Part shown: positions 5,424 to 56,669 of the stretch, in pieces
How the letters are laid out: each line of letters begins with the position of its first letter
Position numbering within the stretch: the stretch's first letter is position 1
NCBI GenBank assembly: GCA_947456815.1
Contig: CANGTL010000012.1
Location: forward strand, 1-64,000
Source: Flavobacteriaceae bacterium
GTDB lineage: Bacteria; Bacteroidota; Bacteroidia; Flavobacteriales; Flavobacteriaceae
DNA: 64,000 nt
Reading direction: 5' to 3'
Notes under the pieces: generated by a model
Told to the model about the DNA's origin: nothing
What the model saw: the letters and a program-made list of their open reading frames with translations, nothing else
The model's database searches: none
Position numbers and translations under genes: made by a program

Positions 5424-5508
5424 AGGAGCTGTTCCCGCTATCTGCTACAATCTTTTGTGTCGAACACCGCCACAAAAGGATTTTCGCTACTATCGGGGCT
5501 AGGGCATT
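5424..5508. repeat. Dispersed structured repeat, copy 1 (possible Flavo-1-like RNA or REP element)
   Basis: This is an imperfect long palindrome. The outer arms carry AGGAGCT..CCCGCTAT and TATCGGGGCTAGGGC; the inner stem AATCTTTTGTG pairs with CACAAAAGGATT around the 11-nt loop TCGAACACCGC. The inner 35 nt (5449-5483) are identical to those of the copy at 26131-26246, and the outer arms match those of the copy at 56549-56669. It lies between the glnN terminator and the first OmpA-like gene. From general knowledge such sequences are frequent between genes of Flavobacteria. The transcribed strand cannot be decided here. Confidence 0.75.
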
Positions 5509-30649: not shown

Positions 30650-31309
30650 ATGATCAAAACTGTTATTTTCGATATGGATGGTGTGATTGTCGATACCGAG
30701 CCCGTGCATCATTATGCTTATTTGCAGCACTTCAAAGCATTAAATATTGATGTTTCGCCAGAGATGTACGCATCTTTTACGGGAAATTCAACTAAGAATA
30801 TTTATGAAAAGCTGAAAGCTCTTTTTGATTTGAAAGAGAACGTCAATGATTTGGTAGAAACCAAAAGAAATCTTTTTAATGACGCATTTGACAGCAAAGA
30901 AGACTTGTATTTGCTGGATGGTGTCTTAGATTTAATTCAAGATTTGCATCAGAAAGGAATGCAGCTGGTTTTGGGTTCATCATCGGCTAAAGTCACGATT
31001 GACAGGATTTTTCGTCGCTTTGATTTGCATCAGTACTTTTCACATATTGTCTCTGGAGAAGATTTTCCGAAATCGAAACCACATCCAGCTATATTCCTTC
31101 ATGCCGCCGAAATTTCACAAACCAATACAAGGAATTGTATTGTAATTGAAGACAGTACTAACGGCGTTTTAGCAGCCAACGCGGCGGGAATTTATTGCAT
31201 TGGATATGATAGTGTGAATTCTAAAATGCAGGATTATTCGACAGCGAATAGGGTTGTGAGTCATTTTGGTGAATTGAATTTTGAGATGATAAGAAGTATT
31301 GTTGGGTAG
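30650..31309 (+). CDS. HAD superfamily hydrolase, beta-phosphoglucomutase-like
   Basis: This 219-residue HAD enzyme shows motif I FDMDGVIVDTEP (Asp nucleophile and acid/base at 8 and 10), a helical cap, motif II VLGSSSAK (~110), motif III Lys in FPKSKPHP (~140) and motif IV VIEDSTNGVLAA (~165). It resembles phosphatases or phosphoglucomutases of subfamily IA; the exact substrate is unknown. It starts 2 nt after tcdA. Its last codons and stop lie at the outer edge of the left inverted repeat of the DUF559 element (31301-31351). Confidence 0.9.
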   Translation: MIKTVIFDMDGVIVDTEPVHHYAYLQHFKALNIDVSPEMYASFTGNSTKNIYEKLKALFDLKENVNDLVETKRNLFNDAFDSKEDLYLLDGVLDLIQDLHQKGMQLVLGSSSAKVTIDRIFRRFDLHQYFSHIVSGEDFPKSKPHPAIFLHAAEISQTNTRNCIVIEDSTNGVLAANAAGIYCIGYDSVNSKMQDYSTANRVVSHFGELNFEMIRSIVG

Positions 31310-31351
31310 GCTTCCCCTCCCTTGGAGGGGTGTCCGCAGGACGGGGTGGAA
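31301..31351. repeat. Left inverted repeat of the DUF559 element
   Basis: This 51-nt arm matches the reverse complement of 31820-31870 at 43 of 51 positions by hand alignment. The core 31312-31351 contains two hairpins: CCCCTCC-CTT-GGAGGGG and GTCC-GCA-GGAC, followed by CGGGGTGGAA. The outermost part overlaps the 3' end of the HAD gene. Confidence 0.85.
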
Positions 31352-31391
31352 AAATGCATAAAATCAAGAGCCAATTAAAAATATATCAGCC

Positions 31392-31817
31392 ATGAAAAAA
31401 GATCTATTTCTAACACACATCAATGAAATTCCAATTGCAAGACATTTTGTAAAAAACCTTCCATACGAATATCAATTAAAAACTAGAGCGAAATCATTAC
31501 GAAAAGCCGGAAACCTTTCAGAAGTTATTTTTTGGAAACACGTACATAAAGGAAAATTTTGGAAAATTGACTTTGATCGACAAAGAATAATTGGCAATTA
31601 CATTGTCGATTTTTATGTAAAAGCATTAGGATTAATTGTGGAAATTGATGGAAACAGTCATGACCATAAAGAAGAATATGATTCAATTCGTGAAACGTTT
31701 TTACTATCTCTTGGATTGAAATTATTTAAAATTTCTGATTTTAGAGTTTTGAATGATTTAGAAAATGTCATGAAAGAACTAGAAGAATTTATTATACAGG
31801 AGTATTCACTGAAGTAG
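31392..31817 (+). CDS. DUF559 domain protein, Vsr-like PD-(D/E)xK nuclease fold
   Basis: In this 141-residue protein the N-terminal ~35 residues are followed by the DUF559 core: RAKSLRKAGNLSEVIFWKHV, FWKIDFDRQRIIGNYIVDFYVK with the catalytic-type Asp, LGLIVEIDGNSHD with the Glu-x-Asp-Gly motif, then YDSIRETFLLSLGLKLFKISD. The fold is that of the very-short-patch-repair and restriction endonuclease superfamily, so DNA cleavage is expected from family knowledge; the target is unknown. The gene lies between two 51-nt structured inverted repeats, an arrangement I remember for many DUF559 genes of Bacteroidota. It may be a mobile or domesticated palindromic-repeat element; that is inference. The ATG at 31392 is the only good start. 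Confidence 0.88.
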   Translation: MKKDLFLTHINEIPIARHFVKNLPYEYQLKTRAKSLRKAGNLSEVIFWKHVHKGKFWKIDFDRQRIIGNYIVDFYVKALGLIVEIDGNSHDHKEEYDSIRETFLLSLGLKLFKISDFRVLNDLENVMKELEEFIIQEYSLK

Positions 31818-31819
31818 AA

Positions 31820-31870
31820 TTCCACCCCGCCTTTCAGGCACCCCTCCAAGGGAGGGGAAACTTAGCCAAC
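31820..31870. repeat. Right inverted repeat of the DUF559 element
   Basis: This is the reverse complement of the left arm with 8 mismatches in 51. Read in the same sense, its small hairpin is GCCT-GAA-AGGC where the left arm has GTCC-GCA-GGAC: both stems pair although the sequences differ. The outer end overlaps the 3' end of the photolyase gene. Confidence 0.85.
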
Positions 31871-33148
31871 AGCTTCTTTATAAACCCGCAAACACCGTTC
31901 TCTTGCCAATTTATGATCAACAATAGGTTCAGGATAGGACAACTCATTCAATTCAGGAATCCATATTTTGATGTAAACTAAATCCTTATCAAATTTCTTG
32001 ATTTGTTCTGTTGGATTGAAAATTCTAAAGTAAGGCGCCGCATCCACGCCAGAACCTGCGGCCCATTGCCAATTCCCAACATTGCTTGCTTGTTCATAAT
32101 CAAGTAGTTTTTGAGCGAAGTACGTTTCACCCCAGCGCCAATCAATAAGTAGATGCTTGCAAAGAAAACTAGCGACAATCATGCGAACACGATTGTGCAT
32201 ATGTCCAGTTGCGTTGAGTTCACGCATTCCCGCATCAACAAAAGGATAACCCGTTTTTCCTTCGCACCATTTTTGAAATTCTTCTTCGTTATTATTCCAA
32301 CGAATGGCGTCGTATTTTGGTCGAAAACTATTCTTTGAAGTATGTGGATAGTGCCAAAGGATTTGCATAAAAAACTCTCTCCAAATGAGTTCATTTAAGA
32401 ATGTTTCATTTTTTTCTTGTATCGCTTTTACTACAATTTTTCGAATGCTTACCGCTCCAAATCGCAGATGAGCACCGAGATGTGAAGTTTTATTTACCGC
32501 AGGAAAATTTCGAGTTACCTCATAATTTTGAATGATATTTTTAGATACATCGAAGGGTTTGACTTTGATGGACGATCTTTCAAAACCGATTTCTTCTATG
32601 CTTAAAAAAGGATAATCATGAGCGAAAACATTATCTAAATAGTCTTCCGAAGCAAAGAATTGCAATTGATTTTTCTTGAAGTTTTCCTTCCATTTTCGGG
32701 AGTATGGAGTGTAAACAACATAAGGCAATCCATCGTCTTTAGTCACTTCGTTCTTTTCAAAAATCACTTGGTCTTTGTAACTTTTGAATTCGATGTTATG
32801 AGATTGCAATAATTCGTATATCGCCTTATCACGTTGGCGTGCGTACGGTTCGTAATCTCTATTTGCGAAAAGACTTTTGATGCTGTTTTCAGTAATTAGC
32901 TTTTCAATAATTGCGATTGGTTCGCCGAAAAAGACCGCTAATGATTTTCCTTTTTGTTGCAATTCAGTATTTATATTTACTAGTAAATCGTGAATAAAAG
33001 AAACGCGCGCATCATCTTTTGAAAGTTGATCTATGATAAAGGAATCAAAAATAAAAATAGGTAAAACAGCTTCTCCACTTTGCAAGGCTTCGAAAAGTCC
33101 TTTATTGTCTTCCAGTCGTAAATCGCGGCGAAACCAGTATATATTCAT
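31862..33148 (-). CDS. phr: Deoxyribodipyrimidine photolyase / cryptochrome family protein
   Basis: This 428-residue flavoprotein has an N-terminal photolyase domain starting MNIYWFRRDLRLEDNKGL and a C-terminal FAD domain with WREFFMQILWHYP, WCEGKTGYPFVDAGMREL, MHNRVRMIVASFL and WAAGSGVDAAPYFRIFNP, all standard for class I CPD photolyases. It repairs pyrimidine dimers with blue light. It is the last gene of a minus-strand run with an SDR (20 nt) and an SRPBCC protein, a cluster that recurs with photolyases in Bacteroidota. Its final codons and stop overlap the outer end of the right inverted repeat of the DUF559 element. Confidence 0.94.
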   Translation of the reverse strand: MNIYWFRRDLRLEDNKGLFEALQSGEAVLPIFIFDSFIIDQLSKDDARVSFIHDLLVNINTELQQKGKSLAVFFGEPIAIIEKLITENSIKSLFANRDYEPYARQRDKAIYELLQSHNIEFKSYKDQVIFEKNEVTKDDGLPYVVYTPYSRKWKENFKKNQLQFFASEDYLDNVFAHDYPFLSIEEIGFERSSIKVKPFDVSKNIIQNYEVTRNFPAVNKTSHLGAHLRFGAVSIRKIVVKAIQEKNETFLNELIWREFFMQILWHYPHTSKNSFRPKYDAIRWNNNEEEFQKWCEGKTGYPFVDAGMRELNATGHMHNRVRMIVASFLCKHLLIDWRWGETYFAQKLLDYEQASNVGNWQWAAGSGVDAAPYFRIFNPTEQIKKFDKDLVYIKIWIPELNELSYPEPIVDHKLARERCLRVYKEAVG

Positions 33149-56548: not shown

Positions 56549-56669
56549 TAGGAGCTAATCCCGCTATCCGTTGCAATCTTTTTTGTTTTTTTTATACTTA
56601 ACGAAGTTGTCATACGTTTTTTATAAAAAACAAAAAAGGATTTACACTACTATCGGGGCTAGGGCATTC
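56549..56669. repeat. Dispersed structured repeat, copy 3 (long loop variant)
   Basis: The outer arms AGGAGCT..TCCCGCTATCC and ACTATCGGGGCTAGGGC match copy 1, and the inner stem AATCTTTT/AAAAGGATTT is conserved. Between the stem strands there is a longer, T/A-rich loop of about 60 nt with its own TTTTTTATAAAAAA palindrome. It lies between the UPF0173 and TPR genes. Confidence 0.75.

Follow-up and report, generated by a model that had tools for sequence, protein, structure and literature searches.

A DUF559 nuclease gene between inverted arms of triplex type: a candidate mobile element in Flavobacteriaceae and other bacteria

A gene for a Vsr-like nuclease of the DUF559 family, enclosed by two short inverted arms, is present in a 64,000-nucleotide stretch of Flavobacteriaceae DNA (the whole stretch analysed, hereafter the window; contig CANGTL010000012.1, positions 1 to 64,000). 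Each arm combines a pyrimidine/purine hairpin with a tail that mirrors the purine strand, and arms of this kind accompany DUF559 genes in many species, stand alone in some genomes, and lie in frame within conserved genes. The units probably form a mobile system comparable to REP/RAYT, in which the gene encodes a Vsr-like nuclease and the ends are of triplex type. A wider reading is evenly poised between right and wrong: that this is an undescribed element whose DUF559 nuclease recognises the triplex and spreads it across phyla in the form of lone repeats, paired repeats and nuclease units, the TM_ECO repeats of Escherichia coli included, entering essential proteins in frame and without splicing.

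Intrastrand triplex motifs were described by Holder et al. (2015), with 23 copies of TM_ECO in E. coli MG1655 and 3,610 repeats in 262 proteobacterial genomes, to which the text of that paper assigns neither a function nor a means of spread (PMC4666352). The repeat architecture is therefore already known, and what is new relative to the main text of that paper is the linked nuclease gene and the presence of arms in coding genes (PMC4666352). A linked nuclease family would be a testable agent for the function and spread of TM_ECO. A three-stranded DNA fold would thereby acquire a biological role, and the 'domain of unknown function' DUF559 a likely task. The units would also exemplify mobile DNA that persists in essential genes by keeping to the reading frame, with no need of introns or inteins.

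The locus and its arms

The nuclease ORF (31392-31817, + strand) is intact and encodes a Vsr-like PD-(D/E)xK protein of 141 amino acids; its match to PF04480 (E 5.5e-25) confirms the DUF559 assignment made in an earlier note on this DNA. The ORF is enclosed by a left arm (31312-31351, + strand) and an inverted right arm (31820-31859, - strand), each of 40 nt and identical at 35 of 40 bases. The earlier note had given the arms 51 nt with 43 matching positions. Inverted arms were confirmed (52 nt with 85% complementarity), but the repeat proper is 40 nt, and the outer bases previously aligned as arm make up the ends of the flanking genes. On the left, a HAD-like hydrolase gene (30650-31309, + strand) ends in a stop codon at 31307-31309, with 2 nt separating it from the arm, and on the right the stop codon (31862-31864) of a photolyase-like gene (31862-33148, - strand) lies 2 nt beyond the arm. 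Both neighbours, whose names are taken from the earlier note, are outside the unit, and they are convergent. The unit itself is free-standing, outside any intron or intein host; free-standing homing endonucleases exist.

The two hairpins proposed for each arm were confirmed. Hairpin 1, CCCCTCC-CTT-GGAGGGG, occupies 31314-31330 in the left arm (purine strand GGAGGGG, 31324-31330, + strand) and 31841-31857 in the right arm (- strand). Hairpin 2, GTCC-GCA-GGAC in the left arm (31332-31342, + strand) and GCCT-GAA-AGGC in the right, is found in the latter between hairpin 1 and the complement of the tail. The proposed compensatory change also held, as four of the five differences between the arms make up two compensated base pairs and the fifth is a loop base. 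Covariation extends to 97 distinct arms of the same layout, in which hairpin 2 is paired at 91.5%, as against 76.0% in shuffled arms (maximum 78.9%). In plain single-strand folding, both arms were only moderately better than shuffled sequence (z -1.5 and -2.2).

By eye, the arm tail GGGGTGG (31343-31349, + strand, on the left; complement CCACCCC at 31822-31828, - strand, on the right) is the mirror image of the hairpin 1 purine strand GGAGGGG, with T facing A. The window arms accordingly have the layout of a triplex motif, with a pyrimidine strand, a purine strand and a mirrored second purine strand all on one strand.

The mirror rule

The generality of this relation was assessed in 146 distinct DUF559 units from the same bacterial family. 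These were drawn from about 110 places fetched from the matches listed (30 loci and 80 stretches), the remaining matches being mostly lower-scoring, and were reduced from 156 to 146 by removing duplicates and units scoring below 60 bits. A pyrimidine/purine hairpin was detected in the flanks of 108 of the 146 units, giving 183 arms, and the other 38 units lacked one. Removal of arms with no A in the core, a core shorter than 6 nt or a short flank left 160 informative arms. An arm was counted as a mirror arm when a perfect copy of its purine core, with G facing G and A facing either A or T, occurred at most 36 nt away.

A perfect mirror of the purine core is present in 126 of the 160 informative arms and absent from 34. 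Permuted cores gave a mean of 28.1 mirror arms (maximum 42 in 500 runs), and foreign cores of equal length gave 11.5 (maximum 19 in 200 runs). When only one arm per distinct core was kept, the mirror score was 25.0 of 30, against 2.8 (maximum 6) with foreign cores. The letters facing A in the 126 mirror arms are 100 A and 73 T, with no C and no G. No excess was seen among the 160 arms for direct copies (16, against 19.2 with permuted cores), complements (2) or palindromes (2); the absence of excess in the last two relations led us to reject Watson-Crick pairing between tail and stem. A one-sided version of the test was weaker (0.749 for own cores against 0.681 for permuted ones) because tails occur on either side of the hairpin, and the test on both sides was therefore used. 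In the 97 arms of the window layout, a set preselected for a G-rich tail, the mirror holds in 93.2% of cells, compared with 89.5% (maximum 90.9%) after shuffling.

In the purine-motif triplex code, the permitted combinations are G*G-C, A*A-T and T*A-T. The arm mirror code matches that motif, with a polarity that fits a strand folding back on itself, so that a purine-motif triplex is the fold predicted from the sequence.

The two ends of a unit are often not the same. Among the 43 units in which both arms are perfect, 30 have different cores, and in six units (L087, L186, L212, L213, L216 and L232) the left and right stems differ (GAGGGG, GGGAGG) and each has its own mirror tail, an arrangement that resembles two distinct ends.

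Linkage of the motif to DUF559 genes

The position of perfect motifs relative to the nuclease domain was determined in the best 80 of 181 loci that encode a nuclease of the window type (in Flavobacterium, Chryseobacterium, Epilithonimonas and others). In these best 80 of 181, 95 motifs (3.96 per kb) are at most 150 nt from the domain, with a further 6 at 150-300 nt, 4 at 300-600 nt and 7 in the approximately 357 kb beyond 600 nt, which makes the density within 150 nt about 200 times that beyond 600 nt. Across the same four bins, direct-copy controls gave 15, 0, 1 and 1 and shuffled controls gave 0. By this strict definition, a motif is present within 300 nt in 62 of the best 80 (of 181) loci and on both sides in 31, and 18 have no motif that close.

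The linkage is also seen outside the Bacteroidota. In 12 of 42 DUF559 records from a plasmid collection, picked for variety, together with E. coli MG1655, a motif was detected within 420 nt of the DUF559 gene at 11 of 13 loci. Motifs flank the gene on both sides at three of these (L345, L346 and L353) and on one side only at the other 8 of the 11. There are 19 motifs in 10.9 kb near the genes and 13 in 21.5 kb farther out, and because of the latter the local excess in other phyla is only about threefold; ten shuffles combined yielded a single motif. Two of the genes with motifs on both sides are embedded in gene clusters, one between transhydrogenase subunit genes in Sphingomonas (L346, 1177-1572) and the other between paaD and paaZ in Deinococcus (L353, 1165-1518).

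The E. coli MG1655 member is ycjD. TM_ECO no. 9 lies 167 nt past its 3' end, and a decayed inverted partner is present at that same end. The chance of such a DUF559 neighbour is roughly 1 in 100, given 18 TM_ECO regions and a gene count that we take to be about 4,300. The ycjD interval, matched over at least 80% of the query length, occurs in 3,362 of 5,426 E. coli genomes. In the fabI-sapF interval (L342, L355-L368), eight of the loci examined carry ycjD and seven carry a regulator and an RND efflux operon. That operon has been named eef, and the authors of the study that names it infer at least two losses of eef with ycjD in its place (PMC12817139). Further matches to the TM_ECO no. 9 interval are more numerous in ycjD-positive strains (median 3, n=25) than in ycjD-negative strains (median 1, n=14; p=0.003), a weak comparison among the 40 entries listed (H82 dropped), as the strains are related and the matches are not individually identified.

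Arms across the genome and the genus

The 2.69 Mb genome to which the window belongs contains 14 exact copies of the arm pattern and none of the reversed pattern. Solo copies, which the earlier note had proposed to look for, make up 12 of the 14, all standing away from the nuclease. Repeats that are dispersed and that also flank a single nuclease gene are the arrangement known from REP/RAYT.

In the genus, arm copies were detected in 15 of 61 genomes, this one included, and the reversed control gave 0 in all of them. Arms away from the nuclease number 32 in the 8 genomes with the matching nuclease, type A (7 of the 32 in one tandemly repeated contig of genome G046) and 15 in the 53 genomes without it (p=3.5e-4). 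This excess indicates that arms accompany the nuclease, but not strictly, since 3 of the 8 genomes with the type-A nuclease have no arms elsewhere and 8 of the 53 without it still carry arms. The earlier note had stated that arms found everywhere unlinked to DUF559 genes would count against a mobile nuclease-repeat unit; the greater number of arms in genomes with the nuclease speaks for the unit, and the 15 copies in genomes without it speak against.

Seven of the 12 solo-arm loci (L004, L005, L008, L011, L012, L013 and L015) adjoin the 5' side of an Rfam Flavo-1 RNA, a possible target or partner of these arms. The window has two Flavo-1 (RF01705) matches of its own, at 5427-5504 and 56553-56664 (both - strand), with no arm in the flanks viewed.

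Units and arms within genes

Of the 146 units, 62 are in frame with a conserved gene. The hosts are LeuRS (23 units), MetH (15), RecG (9), HemD (8, with DUF559 at the N-terminus where examined) and UvrD/RecB-like proteins (4), along with one unit each in a type ISP restriction enzyme, HisD (C-terminus) and IleRS (by eye). The arms are translated as Pro/Gly-rich linkers. In the seven DUF559-bearing host proteins scanned, Pfam detected no intein domain, and the reading frame is continuous.

Occupied and empty alleles can be compared directly in MetH, where at least 7 of the 54 genomes that gave a match carry a unit in the linker; when the linker was read as DNA in 30 loci, 4 were occupied and 26 empty. 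Genome G021 has an occupied linker and G040 a plain one, and the two proteins are 94% identical over the neighbouring 115 residues. The unit substitutes for about 8 native residues, and no target-site duplication was seen by eye at this site. Two hosts contain more than one unit, namely a MetH with two units that are 89% identical (L067, genome G274) and a LeuRS with two units (L049, genome G016).

A second LeuRS site illustrates several states of one position. It is empty in three loci (two from one genome). A solo arm of the window type occupies it in G021 and in the genome from which the window comes; G028 has a solo arm of a different type there, and G016 a complete unit. A similar series was observed in the type ISP gene, for which the best 120 of 8,000 scored relatives were sampled. 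Site 1 could be parsed in only 48 of these 120, and counts were therefore taken at site 2, which in the best 120 of 8,000 is empty in 96, has a forward arm in 8, a reverse arm in 12 and other inserts in 4. A DUF559 unit was found in 12 of the same best 120 of 8,000 by motif and in 13 by Pfam. The type ISP gene of G046 has a unit and two in-frame solo arms, and downstream of it its 3' end is repeated, together with arm pairs that enclose no gene. In one locus (L062, 1-1200), tandem type ISP 3' ends each have an arm pair, with the nuclease gene shrunk to about 45 nt. Short repeats in frame within genes, as in MITEs and Rickettsia palindromic elements, are thus present in both the type ISP gene and the LeuRS gene of the window's genome.

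The nuclease and the spread of the units

Residues E44, D73, E84 and H90 are invariant in 29 nuclease sequences and D86 is nearly so; on the basis of the fold family, these five are presumably catalytic. The conserved acidic and histidine positions are retained in 99-100% of the 146 domains, whether embedded or free. The best of five structure models has a mean pLDDT of 85.6 (the other four 53-63), and Foldseek matches it to 3hrl, a DUF559-like protein, and to I-Bth0305I (3r3p), both with probability 1.00 and the latter with E 5.1e-4. A profile search finds the same pair by sequence (3hrl 1e-32, I-Bth0305I 1.7e-5). The nuclease is related to the homing endonuclease I-Bth0305I. Pfam returned only DUF559 and a sub-threshold MTES_1575 match for the nuclease, with no HUH Y1 transposase.

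The unit in the window shows the presence and absence expected of mobile DNA. Its HAD/photolyase junction is occupied in 3 of 30 loci and empty in at least four genomes (G040, G050, G014 and G043), where a full-length photolyase gene lies only 5-55 nt farther on. These empty sites and the arm-nuclease-arm units present in many species are what the earlier note had suggested looking for, and together with the solo arms and stem covariation they support its proposal of a mobile nuclease-repeat unit like REP/RAYT with a PD-(D/E)xK nuclease. That account was right about the inverted hairpin arms; it missed the mirror tail, the in-frame insertions and the occurrence beyond Bacteroidota. In another genome (G026, L127), whose junction is otherwise free of a unit, the HAD gene is followed by a short piece that resembles the beginning of the CTCCTCC arm in G048, possibly a remnant.

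In the mechanism that we favour, the nuclease would cut at triplex-forming arms while the DNA is single-stranded, and host break repair would then copy a solo arm or a whole unit to new sites, with only in-frame copies expected to persist inside essential genes. Because PD-(D/E)xK nucleases cut DNA by hydrolysis and lack an end-joining activity, spread would need host repair. Folding of the arm as a triplex in the cell, its recognition and cutting by the nuclease, and the completion of copying by repair are steps that we infer.

Some host sites appear to have been invaded more than once, as is suggested by dissimilar units in near-identical hosts. A pair of LeuRS hosts is 92% identical with units only 48% identical, and a pair of MetH hosts is 88% identical with units only 51% identical. 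One member of the LeuRS pair (L061) lacks the conserved histidine, and its unit may be decaying. RecG units track their hosts (r=0.88), other similar hosts carry similar units (e.g. 0.90 and 0.89), and the nuclease tree requires 8 changes of host-site label, as against 58.7 when shuffled. Nuclease lineages are therefore mostly faithful to one site, and this fidelity, the RecG correlation and the like units in like hosts indicate that much of the spread has been vertical.

Such dedication to single host sites, along with the relation to I-Bth0305I, would also suit a homing parasite. The arms would then spread by other means, such as replication slippage or break repair, and DUF559 would cut at or near them, be copied into pairs, and only use the repeats. 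This is the strongest of the alternatives and is nonetheless unlikely. It would accommodate the arms in genomes without the type-A nuclease and the gene-less inverted pairs in L062. It does not lead one to expect that arm cores follow the nuclease tree beyond the shuffled level (49 changes against 72.5 for left arms and 47 against 69.1 for right arms), or that arms away from the nuclease are commoner in genomes that have the matching nuclease.

Alongside the homing parasite, the principal sober rival is a passive repair enzyme. DUF559 would then be a plain Vsr-like nuclease of repair or restriction that homologous recombination happens to shuffle between recombination-prone arms and that does not act on them. 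TM_ECO loci are described as unstable between E. coli strains (PMC4666352). The authors of a study on the Caulobacter DUF559 protein VsrA predict it to be a nuclease of mismatch repair and tie it to a cytosine methyltransferase (PMC12907096). Allele exchange could, moreover, yield dissimilar units at one host site. We regard this explanation as improbable, given that one gene family and one structural rule are associated in several phyla, and given the in-frame solo arms in LeuRS and the type ISP gene. The empty alleles at those sites are armless, and recombination between arms therefore does not explain the solo arms.

A further alternative concerns only the fold. The G-rich strand has several G runs, and the arms could be G-quadruplexes or protein-bound hairpins, with the mobile system otherwise unchanged. 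The published account of TM_ECO points in both directions, since no triplex signal was obtained in double-stranded DNA or by in vivo footprinting, whereas the single strand forms a stable triplex by CD and NMR (PMC4666352). A G-quadruplex needs neither mirrored A positions nor A and T alone facing A, and we therefore rate this reading slightly below the passive enzyme and prefer the triplex-type arm.

A role of the arms in RNA, whether as bidirectional terminators or as message ends of the resident nuclease gene (the earlier note had considered RNA ends), could draw on their position directly downstream of both convergent neighbours and on their ability to fold as single strands, but is very improbable and its terminator form was rejected, as the arms found in MetH, LeuRS and the type ISP enzyme are part of the translated reading frame, an Rfam search of the arms matched no family (best E 0.14), and earlier work, as relayed by Holder et al., found no promoter or terminator activity of TM_ECO (PMC4666352).

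Comparison with known systems

The closest structural parallel of the arms is TM_ECO/PIT, which has the same order of pyrimidine stem, loop, purine stem, loop and mirroring second purine strand. Dispersed copies and inverted pairs of two variants are common to both, and the instability of TM_ECO between strains is a further likeness. The arms of the window type differ from TM_ECO in having a second hairpin between stem and tail. In the text of Holder et al. the repeats stand alone and are always intergenic in MG1655, unlike the nuclease-linked arms within coding genes reported here, and the authors state that no transposase or integrase remnants or mobility activity were found near TM_ECO (PMC4666352). 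The words DUF559, Vsr and endonuclease are absent from the main text of that paper, as is 'triplex' from that of the VsrA study (PMC12907096), and a link between DUF559 and such repeats was not found among the titles and abstract openings listed in searches of open-licence papers.

The resemblance to REP/RAYT lies in short structured repeats that occur alone and as inverted pairs and that flank one nuclease family. RAYT is an HUH Y1 transposase, unlike the PD-(D/E)xK nuclease here, and the arms described here have a mirror third strand. I-Bth0305I (PDB 3r3p) shares the fold of the nuclease with detectable sequence homology, and conserved genes that host homing endonucleases likewise occur in occupied and empty forms. 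The units differ from I-Bth0305I in that no intron or intein is involved and the nuclease domain remains in the host protein or free, with triplex-type arms. Rickettsia palindromic elements are likewise short palindromic repeats in frame within genes, but are about 150 bp long, and the passages describing them name no associated nuclease gene (PMC10969869). Finally, E. coli YcjD and Caulobacter VsrA belong to the same DUF559 family as the window nuclease, and YcjD adjoins both a TM_ECO motif and its decayed inverted partner.
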